DNA of 64,000 nt from Bifidobacterium sp. ESL0775. Lineage in GTDB: Bacteria; Actinomycetota; Actinomycetes; Actinomycetales; Bifidobacteriaceae. Below are positions 24,424-28,950 of this stretch, one piece after another (position 1 is the stretch's first letter; every line of letters begins with the position of its first letter). A program made the position numbers and the translations under genes. The stretch covers positions 1 through 64,000 of the forward strand of contig NZ_CP113917.1 of NCBI RefSeq assembly GCF_029395475.1, given 5' to 3'. The notes beneath the pieces were generated by a model. That model was not told where the DNA came from and searched no databases. It saw only the letters and a list, made by a program, of their open reading frames with translations.

Positions 24424-25551
24424 TCAGTTCAGGCGCAGCTCGGTGGCCGGGGAGAACAGGTGCATCTTGGACGGATCAATCTTGATCTTGACGGTGTCGC
24501 CGACCTTCGGCAGCTGACGCGGGTTGACGCGAATCGTGGTCAGCTTGTTCTGGTCGGACATCGTGGCGGCGGACTCGGCTGCGGAGCCGTCGGTGATGAT
24601 GTCGCCGTAGATATATCCGTCGGAGCCCAAGTCCTCAACATTCTGGACCTTGAGCGAGAAGGCGTTGGCCTCGTCGGGAGCGGCGAGCGAAGCGTCCTCG
24701 GGACGGAAGCCGACGACGATGCGGCCCTTGTCGTCCGGGGTGAGCTTGGCGACGGCGGCGGGATCGAGATCGATGGTGTCGCTGCCAATCTTCGCCTTGC
24801 CGTTCTCCACCGGGTGGGTGTTGATGTTCATGGAAGGCGAGCCGATGAAGCCGGCGACGAAGACGTTCTGCGGCTTGTCATAGAGCTCGGTTGGGGCGCC
24901 GACCTGCTGGAGGATGCCCAGCTTGATAACGGCGATGCGGTCGCCCATCGTCAGGGCCTCAGTCTGATCGTGGGTGACGTAGAGGGTCGTGACGCCGAGC
25001 TGGCGCTGCAGGGCGGCGATCTGCGTACGGGTCTGCACACGGAGCTTCGCGTCCAAGTTCGAAAGCGGCTCATCCATCAGGAAGACCTTAGGCTTACGAA
25101 CGATTGCGCGGCCCATGGCGACACGCTGACGCTGACCACCGGAAAGGGCCTTCGGCTTGCGGTCGAGGAACTCGGTCAGGTCGAGGACCTTGGCGGCCTC
25201 CTCGACGCGCTGGCGAATCTCAGCCTTCGGAACGCCGGCGATCTTCAGGGCGAAGCCCATGTTGTCGGCGACGGTCATGTGCGGGTACAGGGCGTAGTTC
25301 TGGAAGACCATGGCGATGTCGCGGTCTTTCGGCTGCATCGTGGTGACGTCCTTATCGCCAATGTAAATCTTGCCTTTGTTGACTTCCTCGAGGCCCGCGA
25401 GCATACGCAGGGTCGTTGACTTGCCGCAGCCGGAGGGGCCGACGAGCACGAGGAATTCACCATCTTTGATGTCAAGTGTGAGATCGGATACCGAGGGCTC
25501 CGTGTTGCCCGGGTAGATACGAGTGACATGGTCAAATACGACTTTTGCCAT
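24424..25551 (-). CDS. ugpC: Multi-sugar ABC transporter ATPase (UgpC/MsmK type)
   Basis: The 375-residue ATPase powers carbohydrate ABC importers. It shows Walker A GPSGCGKST, Q-loop VFQNYALYPHMT, signature LSGGQRQRVAMGRA, Walker B VFLMDEPLSNLD and the switch His in YVTHDQTEA, then a regulatory OB/TOBE region (about 235-375). No permease or binding-protein gene is adjacent. In bifidobacteria and streptococci one such ATPase serves several sugar importers, which fits. ATG 25551 has AAGGA about 9 nt upstream; the in-frame region upstream to 25650 is not conserved in type and is left out. Confidence 0.92.
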   Translation of the reverse strand: MAKVVFDHVTRIYPGNTEPSVSDLTLDIKDGEFLVLVGPSGCGKSTTLRMLAGLEEVNKGKIYIGDKDVTTMQPKDRDIAMVFQNYALYPHMTVADNMGFALKIAGVPKAEIRQRVEEAAKVLDLTEFLDRKPKALSGGQRQRVAMGRAIVRKPKVFLMDEPLSNLDAKLRVQTRTQIAALQRQLGVTTLYVTHDQTEALTMGDRIAVIKLGILQQVGAPTELYDKPQNVFVAGFIGSPSMNINTHPVENGKAKIGSDTIDLDPAAVAKLTPDDKGRIVVGFRPEDASLAAPDEANAFSLKVQNVEDLGSDGYIYGDIITDGSAAESAATMSDQNKLTTIRVNPRQLPKVGDTVKIKIDPSKMHLFSPATELRLN

Positions 25552-26262
25552 AATTAATATTCCTTTCATCGGCAGGTACGTGCCGAACGATCCGTAGTGA
25601 AGGGTTTTGCATCCACCCGCGAGCCAACTTCGGCAAGCGAATTTCCGCACTTTTCATTCCATTATGAGTGGGGCTCTGCAGGGTTCATCCCCTTGAAGCT
25701 CAAGCCCCACTATACACGGTTTGGATTGGGGAACCCACCGCGAGTTTCGGAGGCCATCGGAGGCATGGCGAGCCGATATCACCTTCGCTATTTTCCATCA
25801 TTCCGGACAGACCTATCTGCTACAATGTGAGAATTAAGAATCTGTTGTAACTAAAAAATCTAGTCAAATGGCATTTATTTGAATCTAAAAGTAGACAAAA
25901 TTTAAGCTGGAACTAATAAGACGAGCGCTTCACCGGCGATTGACGAATTACGCTCATAACGGAATCCGCACACTGCTATGCGTTTTATATAATTATTTTT
26001 ATTTTTTTTAAAAAACGTTTTATCTTCACTGAAGATAACATAATCCAGGAAATTCCTTCATCGTTCATCCTTATCAATCACGACCACGATTTGACAGCAA
26101 TGCTTCATTTTCCAACGTTCGGAGATGTTTCTTTCTGCAATCAGCTATCTTTCTTGGTTTTGATTCCTAACTTGGAGCCAATAAAATAAAATAATAAGCG
26201 TCAAACGATTCAATATGATTTTCATGTTGCAAAAACTAATAAAACTATCGGAAAATAGCAAT
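25552..26262. other. AT-rich intergenic region with two inverted repeats
   Basis: No gene is supported here. AGTGGGGCT (25667) pairs with AGCCCCACT (25703-25711) upstream of the ABC ATPase gene and could be a leader hairpin or operator. From about 25830 to 26260 the sequence is distinctly AT-rich. TTATCTTC-ACT-GAAGATAA (26020-26038) is a perfect 8-bp inverted repeat, a plausible operator upstream of the HTH gene. Confidence 0.5.
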
Positions 26263-26795: not shown

Positions 26796-26824
26796 TTGCG
26801 TCTGTAGGCGACATCCGTTATTCT
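26796..26824 (+). promoter_or_regulatory. Promoter for a leaderless Cys-rich short ORF
   Basis: TTGCGT (26796-26801) and TATTCT (26819-26824) are 17 bp apart, and ATG 26832 follows after 7 nt. Transcription would start at or next to the ATG. Bases 26614-26795 hold no recognised gene. Confidence 0.6.
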
Positions 26825-26831
26825 CGCAACC

Positions 26832-26954
26832 ATGACATCACAAATCTTCTCTGCGGACAGCAGCGTTCAGGCCGGGTTCAACCTTACCGGCATGAGCTGT
26901 ATCTCTCGTCCACGCACGATGATGTCTTGTATGACGACTTTTTGTTGTCGCTGA
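26832..26954 (+). CDS. Putative Cys-rich leader peptide of the cystine transporter gene
   Basis: A 40-codon ORF too short for usual gene calling. The C-terminal half reads MSCISRPRTMMSCMTTFCCR, with four Cys, two of them tandem TGT codons just before the last codon. It has no Shine-Dalgarno but a good promoter ends 7 nt before its ATG, so it is probably leaderless. It lies 340 nt upstream of a TcyP-type cystine symporter. Polycysteine leaderless short ORFs are known cysteine-responsive attenuators in mycobacteria. By analogy, stalling at Cys codons when cysteine is low would raise transporter expression. This is inference from layout and codon content. Confidence 0.55.
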   Translation: MTSQIFSADSSVQAGFNLTGMSCISRPRTMMSCMTTFCCR

Positions 26955-27294
26955 AAACCTTCGATCGTCGATCGTCAGCATTTCTGTATTCTTTTCGCGT
27001 TTTCCGAATGTCTTAGTGTCGCTTTGTGGTTGAAACCATCGTTTCGCAATCGATATTCAGCCGCATGAATCATCGATAACGATATTCAAGGAACCGTGAA
27101 TATATCCCGACGTTGAAATTCCCACGGTGAAACCGCCAGACGTTCTGGAAACCCACCAGAGTCTGCGTATCCCCTGTTTCATAACGGATATTCGAATACA
27201 AAATACTTGAGATCCATCAAGCGCAACGCTTCTTATCGCCAAAAATTCATTCCACATATCCATAATTTCATGCAAATTGATTGAGAGGAAGATC
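26955..27294 (+). promoter_or_regulatory. Long structured leader of the cystine symporter gene
   Basis: Several short hairpins are visible. GACGAC and GTTGTC pair around TTTTT, overlapping the tandem Cys codons of the short ORF. TCTGG-AAACCCA-CCAGA and CTTGA-GATCCA-TCAAG lie further down. No classic terminator with a long T run and no known riboswitch consensus was found, so any control might act on Rho or on translation. Confidence 0.4.
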
Positions 27295-28950
27295 ATGACC
27301 GCAACCATCTGGAACTGGCTGGCGCTCGGCGTCACCGTTCTGCTCTTCGCCGGCCTCGCCGTGCTGAGCCGCACCAAAAAGGCCGGGTTCAGCACCCGCG
27401 TCATCATCGCCACGGTGCTCGGCATCGCGATGGGGCTGATTTTCAAGGGCCACACCGACTACGTCGCCGCGTTCGGCACCGTCTGGTCGAACGCCATCGG
27501 GGCCATCGTCGTTCCGCTGCTGCTTTTCAGCGTCATCGCCAGCATCACCAACCTCGGCTCGTCCCTGCGGCTCAAGAACATCGGGGTCAAAACCGTGGTG
27601 TTCCTGCTCCTGAACACGCTGACCGCCTCGCTGATCACGCTCGGGCTGGCGCTGGCGTTCGGCGTGGGCAAGGGCTTCGACGTCGCCATGCCGCAACACT
27701 ACGAGGCCAAGCATGTCCCGCCGGTGCTCGGCACCATCGTCGGGCTCTTCCCCTCGAACCTCGTCGCCAACTGGGCCGCCAACCAGGTGGTTCCGGTCGT
27801 CATCTTCGCCATCCTCGTCGGCCTAGCCTACAACGCCGCCGCCTCGACACCCAAGGGCGAAGCCGCAGTCAAGCCGTTCAAGACCTTCGTGGACGCCGGT
27901 AACGTCGTGCTTTCCAAGGCCACGCAAATCGTCGTCGGCTTCACGCCTTACGCCGTGCTCGCGCTGATCGCCGCCGCCATCTCCAACAGCAACCTCATCG
28001 CTCTGGTGCCATTGCTGCTCGTGCTCGTCGTGGCCTACATCGCCATCGCGCTACAGATGTTCGTCGTTCAGCCAGCCATCCTCGGCATGACCACACGCAC
28101 CAACCCACTGCGCTTCTTCAAGTTCTTCTGGCCCGCCGGCGTAGTCGCGTTCACCTCCGAATCCAGTATCGGCACGATTCCGGTGACCGTGCGCCAATTG
28201 CGCAAGGGCGGCGTACCCGATGACATCGCCTCGTTTGTCGCCTCGCTGGGCGCGAACCTCGGCATGCCGGGATGCGCCGGCGTCTGGCCCACGCTGCTCG
28301 CGGTGTTCGCGGTCAATTCGTTGAATATGCATTACACGCCGTTGCAGTATCTGCTACTCGTGGCCCTGACCCTGCTGGTCTCCATCGGCACCGTCGGCGT
28401 GCCCGGCACGGCCACCATCACCGCGACCTCGCTGTTCGCGGCCACCGGCCTGCCAATCGCCTTCATCGCCATCGCCCAGCCGATCTCGCAGATCGTCGAC
28501 ATGGGCCGCACCGCCCTGAACGTGGCCGGCGCCGCAAACACCGCCGTCATCGTCGCCGCCACCGAGCACCAGCTCGACCGCGACCTCTACGACGGCCGCA
28601 AGGAGTTCGTCGATTCGGATCTGGACACGGACGCTGTAGACGCCGAGCGGGATTCATCCAAGGAATTAGTCAGCGCCACTACGGTCAAAGCGAATGTTGA
28701 AGCCAGCAACGAAACCGACGCGGGTGATACTACCAACACGAAGCGCAGCGGTTCACAGGGAAATTCCAATGTAGCAGGCGCCGGAACCGCGGCTTCAGCG
28801 AACACCTCGGCCTCGCCAAGCCCATCGCTGAATCTCTCGACTGCAGGCAACTTGCTGAGCTTCTCCCCGTCATCCGCGCTCGACGGCCAAGGCGATGACA
28901 TGTGCGGCCTTCGTTCGTCCGATGATGGGAACGAGCGCAAAACCGAATAA
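27295..28950 (+). CDS. tcyP: L-cystine-type symporter, DAACS family (TcyP-like)
   Basis: The 551-residue membrane protein has about eight to nine hydrophobic segments plus the re-entrant loops of the dicarboxylate/amino acid:cation symporter family. The SESSIGTIPV loop and GCAGVWP resemble TcyP, the L-cystine uptake protein, more than glutamate or C4-dicarboxylate members. A hydrophilic tail of about 110 residues after the transporter core is unusual and looks disordered. ATG 27295 follows GAGAGGAAG by 4 nt; TTG 27277 is in frame but unlikely. The substrate assignment is from motif resemblance and is supported by the Cys-rich leader ORF. Confidence 0.75.
   Translation: MTATIWNWLALGVTVLLFAGLAVLSRTKKAGFSTRVIIATVLGIAMGLIFKGHTDYVAAFGTVWSNAIGAIVVPLLLFSVIASITNLGSSLRLKNIGVKTVVFLLLNTLTASLITLGLALAFGVGKGFDVAMPQHYEAKHVPPVLGTIVGLFPSNLVANWAANQVVPVVIFAILVGLAYNAAASTPKGEAAVKPFKTFVDAGNVVLSKATQIVVGFTPYAVLALIAAAISNSNLIALVPLLLVLVVAYIAIALQMFVVQPAILGMTTRTNPLRFFKFFWPAGVVAFTSESSIGTIPVTVRQLRKGGVPDDIASFVASLGANLGMPGCAGVWPTLLAVFAVNSLNMHYTPLQYLLLVALTLLVSIGTVGVPGTATITATSLFAATGLPIAFIAIAQPISQIVDMGRTALNVAGAANTAVIVAATEHQLDRDLYDGRKEFVDSDLDTDAVDAERDSSKELVSATTVKANVEASNETDAGDTTNTKRSGSQGNSNVAGAGTAASANTSASPSPSLNLSTAGNLLSFSPSSALDGQGDDMCGLRSSDDGNERKTE

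Follow-up and report, generated by a model that had tools for sequence, protein, structure and literature searches.

Background

In the mycobacterial systems closest to the one described here, stalling of the ribosome keeps the ribosome site downstream from being masked. The mycobacterial case of a polycysteine, leaderless short ORF was reportedly shown by Canestrari et al. in 2020. The available text of PMC9031893 describes attenuation in mycobacteria by the cysteine-dependent speed of the ribosome on a leaderless polycysteine short ORF, and work on these ORFs is also cited in the available portions of PMC9094748 and PMC13236596. Cysteine leader peptides have been predicted in bifidobacteria as well: in the accessible part of their paper, Seliverstov et al. 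(2005; PMC1262725) proposed them for the cys operons of mycobacteria and P. acnes and for the cbs gene of B. longum, found no terminator and suggested Rho. A sequence-only reading of the present locus had known of no description in bifidobacteria, a statement that the 2005 prediction overturns. In our literature search, which had most subscription papers outside its reach, no such leader was described on a bifidobacterial transporter; the words “leader” and “cbs” do not occur in the available text of a study of B. longum sulfur metabolism (PMC11540073), nor does “cysteine” in that of a review (PMC11550727). According to the part of PMC4782308 available, leaderless starts make up 10% of transcription start sites in A. 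muciniphila and 15% in B. pseudolongum, and we count their commonness in the latter in favor of an attenuator.

The locus lies in the window, by which we mean the first 64,000 nt of Bifidobacterium sp. ESL0775 contig NZ_CP113917.1, part of a one-contig genome of 2.26 Mb. Like the mycobacterial polycysteine ORFs, it combines a candidate leaderless short first ORF, contiguous Cys codons and a probably cysteine-related target; the contiguous, conserved Cys codons near the ORF end that mark the mycobacterial type are found here as two in a row (CC in 10 of 11 genomes, YC in one). Unlike them, it has a probable cystine transporter as its target and a 40-codon ORF that has just two Cys in tandem and is predicted to fold on itself, the spacer between ORF and gene measures 316–462 nt across the 11 genomes, and ribosome-site masking was not found. 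With the B. longum cbs leader it shares the genus, Cys runs near the stop codon and the failure to find a terminator, but the gene is a different one, and the accessible part of PMC1262725 makes no mention of leaderless starts, a transporter or a conserved bifidobacterial leader structure. As in classical attenuators, such as those of trp in Corynebacterium and Streptomyces (PMC1262725), codons for the regulated amino acid stand in the leader ORF, whereas no terminator/antiterminator pair was found.

A candidate leaderless ORF with terminal cysteine codons

The candidate promoter on the + strand (26796–26824) consists of TTGCGT at 26796–26801, 17 nt, and TATTCT at 26819–26824. Because a generic sigma-70 scan did not include it among its calls, the case for this promoter is comparative: a TAnnnT ending exactly 7 nt before the ATG, and a TTG at the place of the -35 element, recur in 11 of 11 relatives (leaders read by eye). 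The 7 nt between TATTCT and the ATG at 26832 are CGCAACC, in which a purine-rich Shine-Dalgarno sequence is absent. This ATG opens a candidate leaderless upstream ORF (uORF) of 40 codons (26832–26954, +), MTSQIFSADSSVQAGFNLTGMSCISRPRTMMSCMTTFCCR followed by a stop. Its Cys residues occupy codons 23, 33, 38 and 39, and it ends TGT TGT CGC TGA; the tandem Cys codons 38–39 (26943–26948, +) are the proposed sensor. A 340-nt spacer (26955–27294, +), in which C exceeds G 1.36-fold, leads from the uORF stop to the ATG of a transporter gene at 27295, and the ribosome site of that gene, GAGAGGA, lies at 27283–27289 (+). The promoter elements with their spacing, the missing Shine-Dalgarno sequence, the 40-codon ORF with four Cys and tandem TGT TGT before its last codon, and the 340-nt leader had all been described in the sequence-only reading and are borne out by the DNA and its translation. 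Elsewhere in the window, the ABC transporter ATPase ORF 24424–25650 carries an msiK RNA (RF01747, 63.5 bits) at its 5′ end, at 25554–25612 (-).

Of 112 Bifidobacterium genomes, 11 have a relative of the uORF at the same place before the SDF-family transporter (G000, G025, G082, G083, G084, G086, G087, G088, G090, G092 and G093). Searched with a profile of the 11 uORFs, the 112 genomes gave exactly these 11 matches with E values up to 2.1e-12, all of them upstream of the transporter; beyond them, no match anywhere is better than E 0.015, and from there on the matches are noise. Since the profile was built from the same 11 sequences, the weight of this result lies on the shared place and on the absence of others. 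With a single uORF as query, eight of the 11 were already found at E 6.6e-6 or better. Common to all 11 are the MTS start, the reading frame and Cys39; Cys38 is present in 10, so that the uORFs end CCR, CCRR or CCH in 10 genomes and YCR in one. Lengths of 32, 34, 40 and 42 codons occur, and the middle varies in both length and sequence, being replaced in L008 and L010, while Cys23 and Cys33 are retained in all eight uORFs of equal length. A lack of conservation of the frame or of the Cys codons in relatives, which the sequence-only reading had named as grounds for abandoning its proposal, was looked for in the 11 genomes and not seen there. Conservation of the uORF is limited, in that at least 7 of the 22 genomes with the transporter have no such ORF.

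Substitution rates do not prove coding. For the eight uORFs of equal length (L006, L008 and L010 being left out), pN/pS is 0.52 in the reading frame, the two alternative frames give 1.45 and 0.55, and the variable columns by codon position are 15, 21 and 21 of 39, third positions being no more variable than the others. The coding case therefore rests on the start, stop, frame and CC end. Within the window's own genome, TGYTGYCRNTGA matches 41 times, 10 of them with an in-frame start, and only the uORF of the window combines a short-ORF end with an ATG 7 nt after TAnnnT; among 30 of the 41 matches, TAnnnT lies 4–9 nt before the start in two, namely, this ATG and a GTG at 9 nt (L271). The conserved MTS start and CC end would also suit a small peptide with a function of its own, such as metal binding. 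We regard this as very improbable, as the middle of the peptide varies so freely, the uORF profile brought up three candidates in a protein database with none at E 0.01, and the uORF is found only in genomes where it precedes the transporter.

The downstream gene as a probable cystine transporter

The gene at 27295–28950 (+) encodes a TcyP-like symporter of the SDF family (PF00375), for which BLASTP and motifs suggest cystine as the likely substrate. With the GltP, DctA and SstT models, its scores fall well short of the cut-offs. Against E. coli proteins, BLASTP gave 153 bits (31%) for TcyP, 148 bits (26%) for GltP and 71 bits (22%) for DctA. Like TcyP, the transporter has GCAG where GltP and DctA have LDGS and LDGT, and DMGRTALNV where GltP has DMARTALNV; these common motifs and the somewhat greater identity to TcyP agree with the TcyP-like gene named in the sequence-only reading. 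Among the relatives listed in UniRef, three are named “L-cystine uptake protein,” and most carry the name of a dicarboxylate/amino acid symporter. Cystine is not certain as the substrate, because the closest solved structure carries the name of an aspartate transporter (213 bits) and the GltP score nearly equals that of TcyP. About 110 residues follow the symporter domain (window positions about 28610–28950, +) as a Ser/Ala/Thr-rich, poorly conserved tail.

Relatives of the transporter scoring at least 350 bits are present in 22 of the 112 genomes. The gene is split in G086 (C1:117821–119456) and G030 (C10:88768–90118), the pieces lying in different frames; G086 retains the uORF. Short remnants of the transporter occur in G019, G061, G020 and G038.

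Cysteine ORFs ahead of other genes, and the missing CBS

Three more transporter genes are preceded by short candidate leaderless ORFs, MNFMLCCCR in G065, MNFVLCCCR in G057 and MMFMFCCRR in G064, each followed by a stop, with the same 7-nt TAnnnT geometry, 288–292 nt ahead of the transporter. In the corresponding leaders L017, L018 and L019, we observed a GCACCC/GGGTGC-type hairpin a few bases past the stop of the short uORF, different from both the window leader and the CBS leader. No such ORF was seen ahead of the transporter in L011–L016 and L020, nor in the transporter loci of B. primatium (L087) and B. polysaccharolyticum (L088).

The same device precedes CBS genes of the genus. For 29 of 30 CBS-like loci, a candidate leaderless ORF ending CCCR, CCCCR or CCCCCR stands ahead of the gene, with TAnnnT 7 nt before the ATG in 27 and 6 nt in two; L194 has no such ORF. 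These loci are the best 30 from a TIGR01137 search of the 112 genomes, 10 of which pass the TIGR01137 cut-off, with the other 20 close below. From among the matches listed in a genus-wide search with a Cys-ORF pattern, 20 stretches were taken, 12 of them with an in-frame start, of which only L303, a CBS locus, resembled a leaderless Cys uORF; the same pattern over 19 genomes proved too unspecific and was not used. Outside the genus, 27 loci (L091–L116 and L133) yielded no CC-ending ORF with the geometry and five CC ORFs lacking it. The recurrence of Cys codons just before the stop on both a gene of cysteine synthesis and a probable cystine transporter argues against a leader ORF that is translated without responding to cysteine, for example for RNA protection or a constant expression level; we think such a leader improbable, though it would be compatible with the evidence insofar as our case for a cysteine response is drawn from sequence.

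The CBS leaders (L166–L195; e.g., L181:2722–2820, -) contain a strongly conserved element of their own just after the uORF stop, in which a possible hairpin and the motif GCATAACTTGAGATAGGA come after the Cys codons and stop. Its consensus fold is weak (-3.79 kcal/mol, with changes on both sides in one of eight pairs), and the best match to this motif in the transporter spacers covers 11 of 18 bases.

Matches to the CBS model in the 11 genomes with the long uORF are weak throughout, at E 2.8e-13 to 1.1e-11; in the remaining 11 genomes with the transporter, all reach E 4.4e-141 or better. Cystine uptake should thus matter more in the former. Three caveats apply to this association. First, the 11 genomes may represent one clade, so the association may reflect one event. 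Second, nine further genomes lacking a strong CBS match (G002, G012, G013, G050, G085, G089, G091, G094 and G109) also lack a strong transporter match. Third, PF01053 enzymes are present in 18 of 18 genomes checked, so the absence of CBS does not establish auxotrophy.

Predicted folds of the leader RNA

The consensus fold of eight leaders (L006, L008 and L010 being left out of the alignment) predicts that most of the uORF RNA forms a long imperfect hairpin (about 26834–26926, +), with the G of the start codon in the first pair; this hairpin was absent from the sequence-only reading. Because the structure was derived from the alignment on which it was then tested, the test favors it, and the following values should be read in that light: the paired share of cells is 94.9%, a value that none of 500 shuffles reached; nine cells show changes on both sides and the covariation score is 0.178, each reached by one shuffle in 500. 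Two of the five covariation measures fall within the shuffles: 79 of 500 shuffles do as well in the number of pairs changed on both sides, and 413 of 500 in further pair types. Versions of the structure slid along the alignment pair in 23–56%. The hairpin over the tandem Cys codons, which the sequence-only reading had noticed, is found as a predicted 6-bp pairing of GACGAC (26933–26938) with GTTGTC (26944–26949), the Cys codons lying in its 3′ arm (26933–26949, +); 97.9% of its cells are paired, and no pair is changed on both sides. The end helix of the long hairpin, sought in all 11 leaders, has 6–8 pairs in each, a length at which helices can arise by chance; L008 has G-C for A-U, and L010 has, at another place, one non-pair.

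These pairing statistics, together with the weak selection at the codon level, would agree with a conserved RNA element, the long hairpin, that binds a protein or a small molecule, the ORF being incidental. We consider this explanation improbable. The start, frame, CC end and stop survive the length changes and, in L008 and L010, the exchange of the middle for another sequence; the CBS ORFs and the short transporter ORFs are too short for the hairpin, yet retain the CC end and the geometry. Rfam gave no match in the leader. When T-boxes and other Rfam leaders were sought in 20 related loci, only two tRNAs and no T-box were found.

Masking or termination

If the leader works by ribosome stalling, its output could resemble the mycobacterial one, with the ribosome site masked, or be termination within the spacer. 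Predictions for the transporter and CBS leaders differ in this respect. In folding predictions with the Cys tract blocked, the ribosome site was freed in 17 of 29 CBS leaders, with the reverse in two, and in only 2 of 11 transporter leaders, with the reverse in four (freed and reverse denoting a change of over 0.05 in the unpaired ribosome site). The mean unpaired fraction of the CBS ribosome site rose from 0.37 to 0.59 with the Cys tract blocked, compared with 0.41 for other blocks. Analogously, the longest complement to the ribosome site is 6.24 nt in the CBS leaders versus 5.30 in shuffles (sd 0.85), and 6.0 versus 6.03 in the transporter leaders. Those two tests are the only ones that speak for masking in the CBS set; direct pairing between the Cys tract and the ribosome site is not special there (median fractions of windows pairing as well, 0.56 for the short and 0.84 for the longer duplex). 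Roughly one in two of the 29 CBS leaders (within L166–L195) also contains CGTTTC-like stretches complementary to GAAACG of the ribosome site, mostly 50–100 nt upstream of the CBS start and with some matching changes (L186, L190); from sequence, a masking hairpin of CGTTTC with GAAACG is possible.

For the transporter leaders, the duplex tests gave no uniform answer. With short duplexes, the median fraction of spacer windows pairing as well was 0.35, and 1 of 11 leaders fell at or below 0.05. With longer duplexes between the uORF end and the ribosome site, the median was 0.17; two of 11 stood at 0.00, pairing better than every other spacer window, while three exceeded 0.5, thus pairing worse than half of the other windows, among them the window's own leader at 0.93. 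The consensus fold does pair uORF positions 26928–26932 with 27270–27274, just upstream of the ribosome site. Consistent masking of the transporter ribosome site was rejected, the Cys-block folding, duplex and complement tests being mixed or null. As an explanation of the whole locus, the same sensor acting through masking is in our view rather unlikely; it is a version of the explanation that we prefer, and its probability overlaps with the latter.

As for termination, no intrinsic terminator was found on the + strand between 26600 and 27400 of the window. All 11 transporter leaders and all 29 CBS leaders have more C than G in the spacer. This bias is a weak sign of Rho, since 3 of 20 other 5′ stretches of the window (from mechanical gene calls) also reach a C-over-G of at least 1.36. 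In L005 (G084), about four tandem copies of the 18-base unit TTTTATACAAAGTAATTA lie just upstream of the transporter ribosome site and are absent in relatives. The transporter and CBS leaders seem to share their sensor and may differ in output.

Proposed mechanism and significance

We believe that the leader is probably a cysteine-responsive, ribosome-stalling attenuator, a reading based on sequence and its comparison among genomes. Transcription would start at the uORF ATG, and a ribosome would load on the leaderless 5′ end, read the 40 codons and melt the hairpins of the uORF. With ample Cys-tRNA, TGT TGT CGC would be read, the ribosome would stop and leave, and the RNA would refold, with the transporter held down. 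With Cys-tRNA in short supply, a stall on codons 38–39 would keep the small hairpin open and the stop region of the RNA covered, and expression of the transporter would follow; both the cysteine response and its direction are as we infer them. Given such an attenuator, we would give an even chance to termination, probably Rho-dependent, within the 340-nt spacer and an appreciably smaller one to ribosome-site masking; any other output appears a minor prospect. Against an attenuator stand the mere two tandem Cys codons, the Tyr-Cys of one genome, the transporter loci that have no such ORF, substitution rates that fall short of proving coding, the uncertain substrate and the mixed or negative tests of the output. 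The sequence-only proposal of cysteine attenuation of cystine uptake is upheld in part, namely, in the conserved leaderless geometry, frame and terminal Cys codons, in the motifs shared with E. coli TcyP and in the like leader ahead of the CBS of the genus; consistent masking, the mycobacterial output, was not found in the transporter leader.

The transporter target, the long hairpin-folded ORF and the association with missing CBS are new. A further reading, which we hold tentatively and at less than even probability, is that a Bifidobacterium clade lacking CBS has placed leaderless Cys-ORF sensing on cystine uptake instead of synthesis, by means of a 40-codon ORF that forms its own hairpin and acts by spacer termination, not masking. 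A native cysteine-responsive leader could be a genetic tool in bifidobacteria. If the proposal is true, ribosome-sensed cysteine control in these bacteria would extend from cysteine synthesis to cystine uptake, and a sensor consisting essentially of a promoter, a start ATG and several Cys codons would recur in Actinobacteria and track the way in which each lineage obtains cysteine.
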